IMG/VR virus record: IMGVR_UViG_3300010389_000102
Span: 1-26,711 of that record
From: a virus
Reading direction: 5' to 3' (one strand)
Length of the DNA: 26,711 nucleotides
Below are positions 2,245 to 10,978 of the stretch, piece by piece. Numbering within the stretch: position 1 is the stretch's first letter; each line of letters begins with the position of its first letter. The position numbers and the translations under genes are program-made. The notes below the pieces were generated by a model. It was not told the origin of the DNA, did not search any database, and worked only from the letters and a program-made list of their open reading frames with translations.

Positions 2245-3096
2245 GTGAGTCACGAACTCGCAACCGTCAACACCGTCGGATCGTTCGACCTGATGCTGAA
2301 ACAGGCCGACATCCTCGCGCAGTCGCGCATCATTCCTGCCGCATACCGGAACCGGTCCGCGGACGTCGTCGCCGCCGGACTCGCCGGACAAGCGTTCGGC
2401 TGGGACCTGATGACGTCGCTCCGCAACTACCACGTGATCGAGGGGACCGCGTCCCTGCGTCCTGAGGCGATGCTCGGACTGGTGCGTCGTGCCGGTCACT
2501 CCGTCAGCCTCGAACTGGTCGCCGAAACGTCCGGCGGGCGTGCCGCCGTCGCGAGCGGGAAACGTGCCGACACCGGCGACGAACACACCGCGAAGTTCTC
2601 CGAGTTGGATGCGAAACGCGCAGGGCTGGCTGGCAAGAAGAACTGGCAGACGTATCTCGACTCGATGTTGACATGGCGTGCCGTGTCCGCCCTGTGTCGC
2701 GTGCTGTTCCCCGATGTCGTGCTCGGAGCGGGCTATGTCCCGGAGGAGATCGGCGGCGATGTCGACTCGACCGGCGCACCGTTGGAGGACGATCCGTTCA
2801 CCGACCCGACCCTGCCGATCGCCGAGGCGAAACGCCGAGTGCTCGCCGCCTGTGACGGCGACAAGGAGATGGCGCGGCAGGTGTGGGGCGATTACACCGC
2901 GGAGCACGGCGAGGACCTGCGTGAGTCCGCGATCCTCGACCTTGTCGACCGGTTACTCGGAGACGGAATCGAGGACGCCGAGGTCGTCGAGGAGTCCCGT
3001 ATCCCGCAACGGGTCGACACGATCGAGACTGAGAAGTCGGTGCTGATCCTCGAATCGTTGCTGGAGGAGTTCCCCGGCTCGACCGTCAAGGAGTAG
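2245..3096 (+). CDS. RecT-like single-strand annealing protein
   Basis: A 283-residue protein from GTG 2245, with a very strong ribosome site (GAGGAGGT at 2233-2240). The N-terminal half has an order seen in phage and bacterial proteins annotated RecT-like: a KQADILAQSRIIPAAYR opening, a VVAAGLAGQAFGWD helix, NYHVIEGTASLRPEAML, then AKRAGLAGKKNW and SMLTWRAVSALCR...GAGYVPEE. Such proteins bind and anneal single-stranded DNA in recombination-dependent replication. The C-terminal 80 residues are acidic and helical and look like an adaptor tail. The position just before the replication block supports the role. No exonuclease partner is seen. Membership of the family is by pattern recognition. 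Confidence 0.65.
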   Translation: MSHELATVNTVGSFDLMLKQADILAQSRIIPAAYRNRSADVVAAGLAGQAFGWDLMTSLRNYHVIEGTASLRPEAMLGLVRRAGHSVSLELVAETSGGRAAVASGKRADTGDEHTAKFSELDAKRAGLAGKKNWQTYLDSMLTWRAVSALCRVLFPDVVLGAGYVPEEIGGDVDSTGAPLEDDPFTDPTLPIAEAKRRVLAACDGDKEMARQVWGDYTAEHGEDLRESAILDLVDRLLGDGIEDAEVVEESRIPQRVDTIETEKSVLILESLLEEFPGSTVKE

Positions 3097-3102
3097 AGCG
3101 AC

Positions 3103-3137
3103 GGGTGGCGGGCCGACCAACCAGCGGCCCGCCACCC
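3103..3137 (+). terminator. Strong hairpin terminator after the RecT-like gene
   Basis: A perfect 12-bp stem (GGGTGGCGGGCC at 3103-3114 with its complement at 3126-3137) encloses an 11-nt loop, 6 nt after the RecT-like stop codon. There is no U-tract, as is usual for hairpin terminators of high-GC actinobacterial systems. It probably ends early operon 1. Confidence 0.65.
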
Positions 3138-3294
3138 TCGCACCGAGGCGGAGGCAACCTCGGCACTCGGACAGTATCAGCATCATTCCCGACGGCATCT
3201 GCGCGATCGCGATATGGTGCGGCGAAACGTAATCGCCCGGGCGACGGCACCACTCCGTCCCCGGGCATGGAACGACCCTCAGGAGGTCGAACAG
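3138..3294 (+). other. Structured leader region before the replication initiator
   Basis: This 157-nt stretch without a gene holds two further hairpins. One is CCGAGG/CCTCGG with a 9-nt loop (3143-3163). The other is GCCCGGG/CCCGGGC continued by GACGG/CCGTC with a single bulged C and a 7-nt loop (3235-3266). A strong AGGAGGT at 3281-3287 follows and belongs to the leader ORF at 3295. A promoter for the replication block should lie here, but no hexamer pair is convincing. GATATGG near 3211 is the best -10 candidate. Confidence 0.45.
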
Positions 3295-3345: not shown

Positions 3346-4193
3346 CCGTGAGCAAATACGTGCGAGTGATGCGTTCGATCTGGACCGATCCCGACTGGCT
3401 GGCGCTCCCGTCCCGGTCGAAGATGATCTACCTCCAACTGATCTCACAGGCCAACATCTCGAAGGCCGGTGTTCTCCCGACGGTGCCGAAACGGTGGGCT
3501 TCGATGTATCCGGACCTCGACGTCGACGACGTGTTGTCAGCGATCGGCGACCTCGAATCCGCCGGGTTCGTGCTCGTCGACGACGACACCGAGGAACTAC
3601 TTGTCCGGACGTACATGAGGTACGACGAGATGTATGCCCAACCGAACGGGCGTAAGGCGATCAGCGCGGCGCTCGACGAGATCGTGTCCGGAACACTCCG
3701 CGCGACCGTCGTGGAGGAGTTGGAGGACCTCACCGGAGAGGGTTCCGGAAACCCTTCCGGTAACCCTTCCCGAAACCCTTCCGGAAAGGGTTCCGGTAAC
3801 CCTTCCGGGAAGGGGTCCCTCACCCCTAGAACCCGGAACCTAGAACCCGGAACCCGTAACCATGAACCCTCAACCGACGTCGACGTCGTCGACGGGTTCG
3901 ACGAGTTCTGGCGCACCTACCCGCGCAAGACCGGGAAGGCTCAGGCGGTCAAGGCATGGAACAAACTGAAACCCGACGACCATGAGCAGGCGATCGGCAT
4001 CCTCCCGGAGCACGTCGCCTACTGGCATCGTGTCGGCACCGCCACACAGTTCATTCCGCATCCGGCGACATGGCTGAACGGTCGCCGATGGGAGGACGAG
4101 TTACCATCCGAGAAACAGACGACCGCTCGACGTGAGGCTCCCGGCATGGGTGCGCTCCGCCGACTGATGGAGGAAACACAGCATGGAACGTGA
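3342..4193 (+). CDS. Phage replication initiator / replisome organizer
   Basis: A 283-residue protein from GTG 3342. Residues 1-110 form a winged-helix-like domain (WTDPDWLALPSRSKMIYLQL, then VDDVLSAIGDLESAGFV). Residues about 131-160 are a low-complexity linker of SGNP/SGKG tetrapeptides. The C-terminal part has the signature of phage replisome organizers: FDEFWRTYPRKTGKAQAVKAW, then FIPHPATWLNGRRWEDEL. Such proteins bind the phage origin and recruit the helicase. As in lambda O, repeats encoded by the linker region may be the binding sites. The helicase-loader-like gene overlaps its end by 11 nt. Confidence 0.75.
   Translation: MTVSKYVRVMRSIWTDPDWLALPSRSKMIYLQLISQANISKAGVLPTVPKRWASMYPDLDVDDVLSAIGDLESAGFVLVDDDTEELLVRTYMRYDEMYAQPNGRKAISAALDEIVSGTLRATVVEELEDLTGEGSGNPSGNPSRNPSGKGSGNPSGKGSLTPRTRNLEPGTRNHEPSTDVDVVDGFDEFWRTYPRKTGKAQAVKAWNKLKPDDHEQAIGILPEHVAYWHRVGTATQFIPHPATWLNGRRWEDELPSEKQTTARREAPGMGALRRLMEETQHGT
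3743..3853 (+). repeat. Tandem iterons inside the initiator gene, candidate replication origin
   Basis: Six contiguous 12-bp units start at 3743, 3755, 3767, 3779, 3791 and 3803. They are variants of TTCCGGAAACCC, some ending in GGG and the last extended by one G. They are followed by two adjacent 14-bp units (CTAGAACCCGGAAC at 3826-3839 and 3840-3853). Units four and five also form an inverted arrangement (CCCTTCCGGAAAGGG). Iterons within the gene of the DNA-binding initiator are the organisation of lambda-type origins. No clearly AT-rich unwinding region is seen nearby. Confidence 0.6.
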
Positions 4194-8006: not shown

Positions 8007-8268
8007 CATCGTGCGACGACTCCGGAATCCGGAACCGCTCGACGGCTTGTATTCGCTGTGCCGTCGGGCGGCGACGGAGATCGAAACGCTCCGGGCGCGT
8101 CGCTTGACGTTCGAGGAATGGTACGACGCCGGGATCGACAACAACTGGGTTCTGCCGTTCTGCGCTGAGCATGGCTCGGTGCCGCTCGTCTCTGAGGAGG
8201 AAGCGGACCGGATCGACGCCGGTGACGACCCGTGCCTCCCCGCGTTCAGACTGTGGAACGGCGTATGA
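7990..8268 (+). CDS. Hypothetical protein related to its upstream neighbour
   Basis: A 92-residue protein from GTG 7990, with CAGGAGG upstream and a 17-nt overlap. The N-terminus has DIVRRLRNPEPLDGLYSLCRRAATEIETLR, a pattern often seen in small phage proteins of the form D-I-V-x-R-L-R plus AA-x-E-I-x-x-L. A Trp/Glu-rich middle (FEEWYDAGIDNNW) and an acidic end follow. The function is unknown. Confidence 0.7.
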   Translation: MTSEDDIVRRLRNPEPLDGLYSLCRRAATEIETLRARRLTFEEWYDAGIDNNWVLPFCAEHGSVPLVSEEEADRIDAGDDPCLPAFRLWNGV

Positions 8269-8501
8269 CTGCCCGATCGGAACTGTCCCCACTCGACCAC
8301 CGGATGTTCGCGCTTGCGAAAGCACGCGGACAGGTGAGGGTCACTCACGGCGACCGGGTGCGTCTCGCCACCTTGATCGCGTGGAGACCGCGCGACAACC
8401 GTGGTGTCCGCACGAACAAGGCGCGTGTCGAGTTCCCGACCGGCACCCGGGCGTCGATACCGCTCGCCGAGATCGACACCGATACTGTCGTGATACCGTG
8501 A
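8265..8501 (+). CDS. Hypothetical basic protein, last gene of early operon 2
   Basis: A 78-residue protein from ATG 8265 (ATGA overlap). It is basic, with a helix (LSPLDHRMFALAKARGQ) followed by strands (VRLATLIAWRPR, ARVEFPTGTRASIPLAEIDTDTVVIP) like a small barrel. Its stop codon lies inside the stem-loop at 8486-8511, directly upstream of the tRNA-like RNA. Confidence 0.65.
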   Translation: MTARSELSPLDHRMFALAKARGQVRVTHGDRVRLATLIAWRPRDNRGVRTNKARVEFPTGTRASIPLAEIDTDTVVIP

Positions 8502-8513: not shown

Positions 8514-8590
8514 GGGGATGACATGGCGTCGACGGTCGGCTAAGGCCGAAGCGCACCGACCGGAACCGGGTTCGACTCCCGGCATCTCCA
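8514..8590 (+). ncRNA. 77-nt tmRNA-like RNA: tRNA-like domain without anticodon arm or message
   Basis: The ends form a 7-bp acceptor stem (GGGGATG 8514-8520 with CATCTCC 8583-8589) with G-U at the third pair and A 8590 as discriminator. These are the alanine identity marks of tRNA-Ala and tmRNA. A perfect T-arm is present: CCGGG, TTCGACT, CCCGG (8566-8582). The 5' part reads TGACATGGCGTCGACGG, resembling the tmRNA D-region (A at position 8, GG-x-x-TCGAC-GG). Instead of an anticodon arm, GGTCGG (8534-8539) pairs with CCGACC (8556-8561), as tmRNA helix P2 would, closed by a 16-nt loop. No tag frame or pseudoknots fit. CCA is not encoded. It could be a degenerate tRNA, but the combined features favour a minimal tmRNA-like molecule. 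Confidence 0.6.
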
Positions 8591-8842
8591 CTACTGGCGG
8601 CGGCGACGTTTCTCGTCGAACCTTTGCCGTTCGGTCATTCCGCCCCACACTCCCCAATGCTGGTGATTTGCGAGAGCGTATTCGAGACAGTCGTCGCGCA
8701 CCGGACAGCGGGCGCATATCTCTAACGCCTGTGTCGGTCGTCGACCGGACGGCGGAAAGAAGAACTCCAACGGTTCACCGCGGCACGCACCTCGTCTGAT
8801 CCACGGACCCGGCGCGGGTGGCGGGGTCGGCAGGTCATACAC
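8591..8842 (-). CDS. WhiB-family iron-sulfur transcription factor
   Basis: The protein has 83 residues from GTG 8842; a longer version from GTG 8899 (102 residues) is possible. Cys 20, 43, 46 and 52 form the C-x22-C-x2-C-x5-C ligand set for a 4Fe-4S cluster, and GVWGG (64-68) is the WhiB turn, followed by a basic DNA-contacting tail (RFDEKRRRRQ). WhiB proteins bind region 4 of the primary sigma factor, so a phage copy can redirect host transcription. TACCCT at 8851-8856 lies 8 nt before GTG 8842, which supports a leaderless start there. The gene ends against the tRNA-like RNA, transcribed in the opposite direction. Confidence 0.85.
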   Translation of the reverse strand: MYDLPTPPPAPGPWIRRGACRGEPLEFFFPPSGRRPTQALEICARCPVRDDCLEYALANHQHWGVWGGMTERQRFDEKRRRRQ

Positions 8843-8913
8843 GACGCCGCAGGGTACACGGTCCGACGGTCGCCTGCTGAAACTCGTCGCGGGTCGCACT
8901 ATGCTTCGCCGCC

Positions 8914-9543
8914 ATGTCGGAGGAAAACATCGAACACGTCCCTGTCGTCGACCTGATCGTTCACCCGGACAACCCGCGTCAAGGCGACCTCGGCGCGATC
9001 ATCACCTCGATCAAGAAGAACGGCTGGTACGGGACGGTCGTCGCGCAACGCTCGACCGGTCATGTCCTCGCCGGTAACCACCGTCTGATGGCGGCTCAAC
9101 ACCTGAAACTGGACACGGTCCCGGTGTATTGGGTCGACGTCGACGACGCGACCGCCCGCCGCATCCTGCTGGCCGACAACCGGACCGCGGAACTCGCCAC
9201 CTACGACAACGACCAACTGGTCGACCTGTTGACACGGCACGCGAACGCCGACGACCTGATCGGCACCGGCTGGGATCACGACGACGTCGAGGACCTGATT
9301 CGCCGCCTCCAATACGACGACCGTGATCTCGGCGACGTCATGGATGAATGGGTCGGGATGCCCGACTACGACCAGCCGTCACGCCGCGCCGCGTTCCGAA
9401 CCATCGTGTCGTTCGAGACCGATGCCGACGCCGACCGATTCTTCAAACTGATCGAACATCCGAAACACAAGGACCTGTGGTGGCCGGTAGACCTCCTGAA
9501 GGGCAGTACCGGGTTGGAGAAGAAATGGGTGAACGATGCCTGA
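8914..9543 (+). CDS. ParB/Srx-like nuclease-fold protein
   Basis: A 209-residue protein from ATG 8914; TATGCT at 8900-8905 lies 8 nt before it, suggesting a leaderless mRNA. The N-terminal domain shows the ParB/sulfiredoxin pattern: VVDLIVHPDNPR, then STGHVLAGNHRLMAAQ (GNHR at 54-57), then VPVYWVDVDDATARRILLADNR. The C-terminal part (FRTIVSFETDADADRFFKLI) is a second small domain. Free-standing phage ParB-like proteins are found beside terminases and in DNA-base-modification gene sets. Here the next gene is a glycosyltransferase that overlaps it by 8 nt, which favours a link to modified DNA. Confidence 0.75.
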   Translation: MSEENIEHVPVVDLIVHPDNPRQGDLGAIITSIKKNGWYGTVVAQRSTGHVLAGNHRLMAAQHLKLDTVPVYWVDVDDATARRILLADNRTAELATYDNDQLVDLLTRHANADDLIGTGWDHDDVEDLIRRLQYDDRDLGDVMDEWVGMPDYDQPSRRAAFRTIVSFETDADADRFFKLIEHPKHKDLWWPVDLLKGSTGLEKKWVNDA

Positions 9544-10492
9544 CCTGTCGGTCGCTCACCCGCGATTCCCGATCTACATTCCGTCGATCGGACGGGCCGA
9601 CAGCGGACAAACAGCACGACAACTCCGCGCGATGGGAGTCCGCTTCCGCATCATCGTCGAACAAGCCGAACACGACGACTACGCCCGCGAGTTTGGGATA
9701 CAGAACCTCCTGATCCTCGACCCTGAATATCAACGCCGCTACGAAACCTGCGACGACCTCGGAACCGAGAAACGAGTCGGAGCCGGAGCCGCCCGAAACT
9801 TCGCATGGGAACACTCGATGAGGGAAGGCTACCCGTGGCATTGGGTGATGGACGACAACATCCGATCGTTCAAGCGTCTCCACCAGAACCAGCGACGCGA
9901 AGTCACCGACGGCACCATGTTTCACGCGATGGAAACCTTCTGCCTGCGTTACACGAACGTCGCGATGGCCGGACCGAACTACGTCACGTTCGCTCAACAC
10001 CGCGAACCCCGACCACCATTCCAAGTCGGCACCCGAATCTACTCCTGTAACCTGATCCGGAACGACGTCCCATTCCGCTGGCGAGGCCGCTACAACGAGG
10101 ACACCATCCTGTCCCTCGACATGCTGACCGCCGGATGGAACACCGTCCTCTTCAACGCCTTCCTCACCGAGAAGAACGGCACCCAACTACAGAAGGGCGG
10201 CAACACCGACACCCTGTACCTCGACGGCACCTACGACAAGTCAAAGATGCTCGCCGACCTATTCCCCGACGTGACCCGGCTCGTGAAACGCTGGGACCGC
10301 TGGCACCATCACGTCGACTACAGCCAATGGCGGAAACGCCCACTCATCCGCCGCGACGACCTCGAACTCCCCGCCGACAACCCGTACGCCGGACTGAAAC
10401 TCGTCGACGCCCCACCGCGCAGTATGCGATTCCTCGACGAACAACAGATCGCCACCCTGAAACACGGACAGTCTGAACACTCTGAACGCTAG
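9536..10492 (+). CDS. TET-associated-type glycosyltransferase (GT-A fold)
   Basis: A 318-residue protein from ATG 9536, overlapping the ParB-like gene by 8 nt. Residues 12-20 (PIYIPSIGR), 38-43 (RIIVEQ), 83-89 (AGAARNF) and 102-108 (HWVMDDN) follow the pattern of phage glycosyltransferases described with TET/JBP dioxygenases (TAGT family). The DD of VMDDN would bind metal and nucleotide sugar. In the C-terminal half, RYNEDTILSLDML is a probable acceptor-site region. Known members are predicted to add sugars to hydroxymethylated bases in phage DNA. No dioxygenase or hydroxymethylase is in the window, so the acceptor is open; a protein or other glycan cannot be excluded. Confidence 0.7.
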   Translation: MPDLSVAHPRFPIYIPSIGRADSGQTARQLRAMGVRFRIIVEQAEHDDYAREFGIQNLLILDPEYQRRYETCDDLGTEKRVGAGAARNFAWEHSMREGYPWHWVMDDNIRSFKRLHQNQRREVTDGTMFHAMETFCLRYTNVAMAGPNYVTFAQHREPRPPFQVGTRIYSCNLIRNDVPFRWRGRYNEDTILSLDMLTAGWNTVLFNAFLTEKNGTQLQKGGNTDTLYLDGTYDKSKMLADLFPDVTRLVKRWDRWHHHVDYSQWRKRPLIRRDDLELPADNPYAGLKLVDAPPRSMRFLDEQQIATLKHGQSEHSER

Positions 10493-10495
10493 GGT
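10490..10495 (+). promoter_or_regulatory. Leaderless-type -10 box for the terminase genes
   Basis: TAGGGT is followed by 6 nt and ATG 10502 of the small terminase. There is no Shine-Dalgarno sequence. The same spacing class occurs before several late genes in this window. A matching -35 is not evident. Confidence 0.4.
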
Positions 10496-10501
10496 CAGAA
10501 C

Positions 10502-10978
10502 ATGGCACGAGGACAAACACCTGCGCTCACCCCCGAACAGGCCGAGCGTTACCGCGAGGTGATCCGGCTCCGCACCGCCGGACTGAAGTTCCATGAGATC
10601 GCCGAGCGTGTCGGTTACGCATCCCGTTCGGGTGCGAAGGAGGCGTACGACGCGGCGCTTCGTTGGTGGGGACGGGAGGCGGTGGATGATCTCCGCACGA
10701 TCGAAGGTGAACGTACCGAGGAACTGTGGCGGTACACGTTCGCTCGGATCATTGCGAATCCGGAGTCGACCGCGGAGTTCGTGTCGCTGGTGAACTCGGC
10801 GGTCAAGGTTTCTCAACGTCGCGCGGCGTTGTACGGGTTGGATGCCCCGCGGCAGGTGGAGATCAGCGGCGAGGACGGCGGTCCGGTCCGAACGGATGTC
10901 GGGCAGATACTGCTCGAACGGATTCGGGCGCTCGCTGTGGAGCGCGGCGTCGAGTTGCCTGAACTGCCGGAGGCCTGA
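10502..10978 (+). CDS. Probable terminase small subunit
   Basis: A 158-residue protein from ATG 10502. The N-terminal part (LTPEQAERYREVIRLRTAGLKFHEIAERVGYASRSGAKEAYDAALRWWG) is a helix-turn-helix of the type that binds pac/cos DNA in small terminases, and the remainder is helical with an oligomerisation-like middle (STAEFVSLVNSAVKVSQRRAALYGLDAP). The RRAALYGLDAP segment is frequent in actinophage small terminases. The gene is coupled to the large subunit by TGATG at 10976-10980. Confidence 0.75.
   Translation: MARGQTPALTPEQAERYREVIRLRTAGLKFHEIAERVGYASRSGAKEAYDAALRWWGREAVDDLRTIEGERTEELWRYTFARIIANPESTAEFVSLVNSAVKVSQRRAALYGLDAPRQVEISGEDGGPVRTDVGQILLERIRALAVERGVELPELPEA

Follow-up and report, generated by a model that had tools for sequence, protein, structure and literature searches.

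A virus record of 26,711 bases, hereafter the window, carries terminase, portal and WhiB genes together with a 77-nt RNA gene at 8514-8590 on the plus strand. This gene encodes the tRNA-like domain (TLD) of tmRNA, the bacterial RNA that rescues jammed ribosomes, without the message half. The RNA gene fills the gap between a small ORF on the plus strand (8265-8501; 78 aa, no Pfam match), which runs in the same direction, ends 12 nt before the RNA gene and is possibly co-transcribed with it, and a convergent WhiB-type regulator gene on the minus strand (8591-8899; PHROG 472, E 2e-23), whose stop codon at 8591-8593 abuts the RNA gene. Elsewhere in the window, an alpha-glucosyltransferase-like gene (phrog_842) and an RNase E-like gene (phrog_645) (9536-10978) lie just upstream of the large terminase.

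The 5' strand of the acceptor stem, GGGGATG (8514-8520), pairs with the 3' strand, CATCTCC (8583-8589), with G-U at pair 3 (the G3-U70 alanine identity pair); the 3' strand is followed by discriminator A at 8590. The CCA is not encoded, as A-CTA follows. The D-region ACATGGCGTCGA (8521-8532) lacks a D-stem and contains the GGNNTCGA motif of tmRNA. The P2 helix is formed by CGGTCGG (8533-8539) and CCGACCG (8556-8562), separated by 16 nt (8540-8555), and is followed by GAA and a T-arm, CCGGG-TTCGACT-CCCGG (8566-8582). The tag reading frame with its resume codon and stop is absent, and no sequence is left for the pseudoknots.

To identify the element, the window was scanned with the Rfam covariance models. 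The tmRNA model RF00023 matched 8514-8593 at 61 bits (gathering score 47, E 9e-22), from model position 1 to 374 with the middle missing, and this was the only Rfam match in the window at the gathering threshold. No match to the permuted two-piece tmRNA models (RF04321, RF01849-51) and no tRNA match was reported. ARAGORN did not call the element; it called a 98-nt tRNA-Arg (ccg) at 3721-3818 on the minus strand that Rfam does not support and that is probably false. As ordinary tRNAs can also match RF00023 with the middle deleted, the other hits of this model in 13 bacterial genomes were used as a yardstick. Apart from full-length tmRNAs and the short form itself, tRNA-sized hits scored at most 48 bits and mostly below 39. 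Single-sequence energy folding recovered the cloverleaf for some family members (L119, a Poribacteria copy) but not for the copy in the window (z -1.03), and was uninformative as proof of structure for this copy; the structure rests on the covariance model and on covariation among relatives.

Comparison of related contigs showed that the element is either shared or missing from an empty site. An identical element is present in contig L002, and those of contigs L003 and L004 differ by one base in 77, while the flanks differ by 18.7% in L003 (P about 2e-6 under a uniform rate). In two other relatives, L074 and L077, the element is absent and only five bases separate the two stop codons. In a further relative, L009, the same convergent intergenic site is filled by some 260 bases of imperfect GATCTAGATC repeats (about 2940-3200). 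These results indicate a real, selected gene.

A degenerate pattern for a one-piece tmRNA with 20-50 bases between the D-region and T-arm found 49 virus contigs and 13 contigs in the GTDB collection. Two relaxed patterns, one freeing base 70 and the other base 3, found 100 virus stretches each. All 87 unique sequences read, 75 of them from virus records, have G3-U70, although a simultaneous change of both bases would have escaped. GG lies 2-4 nt before TCGA in 84 of the 87. The pattern itself fixes TGA, TCGAC and parts of the T-arm, so their constancy is not evidence, whereas P2, acceptor pair 5 and the outer T-stem were left free. A Nocardioides hit (L136) lacks a P2 partner and a D-region GG and was counted as a pattern false positive. 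The hits labelled Gemmatimonadetes (L140) and archaeon (L141) are probably misbinned virus contigs, L140 carrying the same element as L003. A similar TLD-only RNA, L213, differs from that of L141 by a hairpin extension inside the P2 cap, suggesting that the cap tolerates insertions.

In 34 sequences under 75% alike, P2 was 94% paired with changes on both sides in four of five pairs, acceptor pair 5 occurred as GC, AU, CG and UA, and the T-stem also covaried. Over the whole structure 98.3% of cells paired, and the covariation score was 0.597 against 0.111 in shuffles and at most 0.13 in slid registers, which reached 42-57% paired.

With the same end patterns, virus contigs gave 100 hits at a spacer of 18-48 nt, 13 at 49-79 (longer caps), none at 140-170 and at least 120 at 295-325, the full-length class, indicating a discrete size class rather than a deletion series. 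Many of the full-length hits come from contigs with isolate-genome identifiers and, judging from these identifiers, are probably prophages next to the host tmRNA gene.

Each of 36 virus records examined has one match over the cut-off, the short one, and none has a full-length tmRNA or SmpB, although many of these records are probably fragments. Five complete Streptomyces phages close that gap. LuckySocke, GiJojo (about 1477-1572), Shaeky and pSt2308 have the short form at 57-61 bits and Alone3 a diverged copy at 37 bits, and none has a full-length tmRNA or SmpB, so any SmpB must be the host's. In these phages the gene lies among tRNA genes and is not annotated as an RNA; in GiJojo a hypothetical protein is annotated over it. 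Their copies keep G3-U70 although neighbouring pairs have changed together. In the group of contig L144, the gene lies between terminase and portal genes. A scan of nearby genes for a shared partner gene revealed none that stands out. No direct DNA match of the window locus to annotated phages was found over 301 bp. The 77 nt alone gave only partial matches, and those looked at were the 3' ends of full-length or permuted tmRNAs, apart from the archaeal-virus hit HRTV-25, which was not resolved. A query of the L149 type found no annotated phage, and one of the L104 type found no plasmid.

Ten Poribacteria genomes carry an 86-88 nt short form (64-70 bits). Seven of them also have a full-length tmRNA, while in three (G002, G007 and G009) only the short form was found, which may reflect assembly gaps. 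In nine of ten loci a homologous pyridoxal-decarboxylase-type gene (85-98% identical) is the neighbour, so the position is conserved.

One phage example of such an RNA was known, the TLD-only tmRNA of mycobacteriophage DS6A (Mao et al. 2009; Hudson et al. 2014, PMC4131195; Nawrocki et al. 2025, PMC11915505), also a phage-borne tmRNA reduced to little more than the tRNA-like domain with no tag frame. Within the open-access papers searched, no report of a wider phage family was found; the form is shown here to be common rather than a single phage case. Jakobid and oomycete mitochondrial tmRNAs (RF02544) are also message-less and keep the tRNA-like domain, but they are organelle genes and usually permuted, while the phage form is unpermuted and one-piece. 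The CDS-less tmRNA of Mallomonadaceae plastids (PMC11915505) is about 65 bp, and some phage forms here are 61-65 nt. The standard one-piece tmRNA (RF00023) shares the acceptor stem with G3-U70, the stemless D-region, the T-arm and P2, but is about 350 nt and has the mRNA-like domain, tag, resume codon and pseudoknots that are lacking here. The full-length or permuted tmRNAs of phages Kumao, BUCT628, SM1 and Melnitz keep a tag-coding part; the permuted genes of BUCT628, SM1 and CcrBL9, which match RF04321, are not annotated in the phage records.

The sequence-only reading had proposed an alanine-type tmRNA-like RNA without anticodon, tag or pseudoknots. This identity is confirmed by the Rfam match, the compensatory P2 changes among relatives and the invariant G3-U70; in addition, no canonical tRNA fold was called and the close relatives that hold the element keep the 5' half. 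The identification as a TLD-only tmRNA, with P2 capped, is near certain (about 0.95). Of the three functions that had been suggested, namely a decoy for ribosome rescue, a regulator or a relic of a larger phage tmRNA, the decoy fits best, because published work reports that the analogous DS6A-type RNA inhibits tmRNA, perhaps by titrating SmpB (PMC4131195, PMC11915505). The relic is disfavoured by the strong conservation and the discrete size class. In the decoy mechanism, which is inferred only, the RNA is made during infection, matured like a tRNA, given CCA and alanine by host enzymes, and binds host SmpB. As it has no resume codon or tag frame, the complex could not complete trans-translation, and the RNA would therefore compete with host tmRNA for SmpB, and perhaps for stalled ribosomes, damping tagging and rescue during infection. 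A probability of about one half is assigned to this mechanism, in the absence of expression, charging or SmpB-binding data for any of these RNAs. The reported inhibition, known here second-hand, is for DS6A or a similar RNA in E. coli at unknown dose, and a purely anti-host role does not explain why Poribacteria keep the form beside a full-length tmRNA.

The main rival, although less likely, is a tagless helper, in which the alanyl-RNA enters stalled ribosomes with host SmpB, accepts the peptide and helps clear them without adding a degradation tag, sparing truncated phage proteins and recycling ribosomes. Message-less mitochondrial tmRNA persists with a nuclear, mitochondrion-targeted SmpB and is thought to help with incomplete mRNAs rather than to block rescue. 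The strictly kept alanine identity also favours this view, as a pure SmpB sponge may not need it: the cited work found inhibition whether or not the RNA could be charged. However, the RNA has no codon or stop for release, and the reported effect of such an RNA in E. coli is inhibition. It is doubtful that the RNA is a decoy or substitute for another tRNA-handling activity (AlaRS, EF-Tu or a host defence enzyme that attacks tRNA acceptor ends) with SmpB irrelevant. The position within tRNA arrays of cultured Streptomyces phages is compatible with this, and alanine identity and the T-arm are the parts such enzymes would see, but the stemless D-region with its GG and the P2 helix are kept across dissimilar sequences, more than an acceptor-end decoy needs.

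An attachment site, an excision fragment of a host tmRNA gene or a decaying phage tmRNA is very unlikely. tmRNA genes are common integration sites, and a likely real one is seen in Mycobacterium phage Shandong1, where only the 3' end is present, about 90 bp from a tyrosine integrase and without an Rfam match. In contrast, both ends and a covarying P2 are kept here, the element is conserved more than its flanks, and no intermediate sizes were found at 140-170 nt. No tyrosine integrase was found in the window's record or in 25 of 27 other carrier records tested, the two exceptions having an integrase more than 10 kb away, and no resolvase was found in any of the 28. Chance similarity or a degenerate tRNA-Ala, despite the unremarkable single-sequence folding and an Rfam match spanning a huge deletion, is contradicted by the 61-bit score, the lack of an anticodon arm and D-stem, and about 100 relatives with the same architecture.

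The 2025 tmRNA database lists only nine unpermuted sequences without a coding part among 97,179, and DS6A is the one phage case its authors name (PMC11915505). The form is found here in about 100 virus contigs, in complete Streptomyces phages and in a Poribacteria lineage. This also shows a gap in annotation, as ARAGORN and the GenBank records miss the Streptomyces copies while Rfam's tmRNA model finds four of five above its cut-off. The finding raises the direct question of why phages would want a tmRNA that cannot tag, and supplies cultured phages in which to answer it. One tentative possibility is that phages of many unrelated lineages carry a discrete class of small RNA that disables the host's main ribosome-rescue system by mimicking tmRNA without its message, a widespread viral anti-trans-translation RNA that standard annotation overlooks and that one bacterial lineage, Poribacteria, also keeps on its chromosome.
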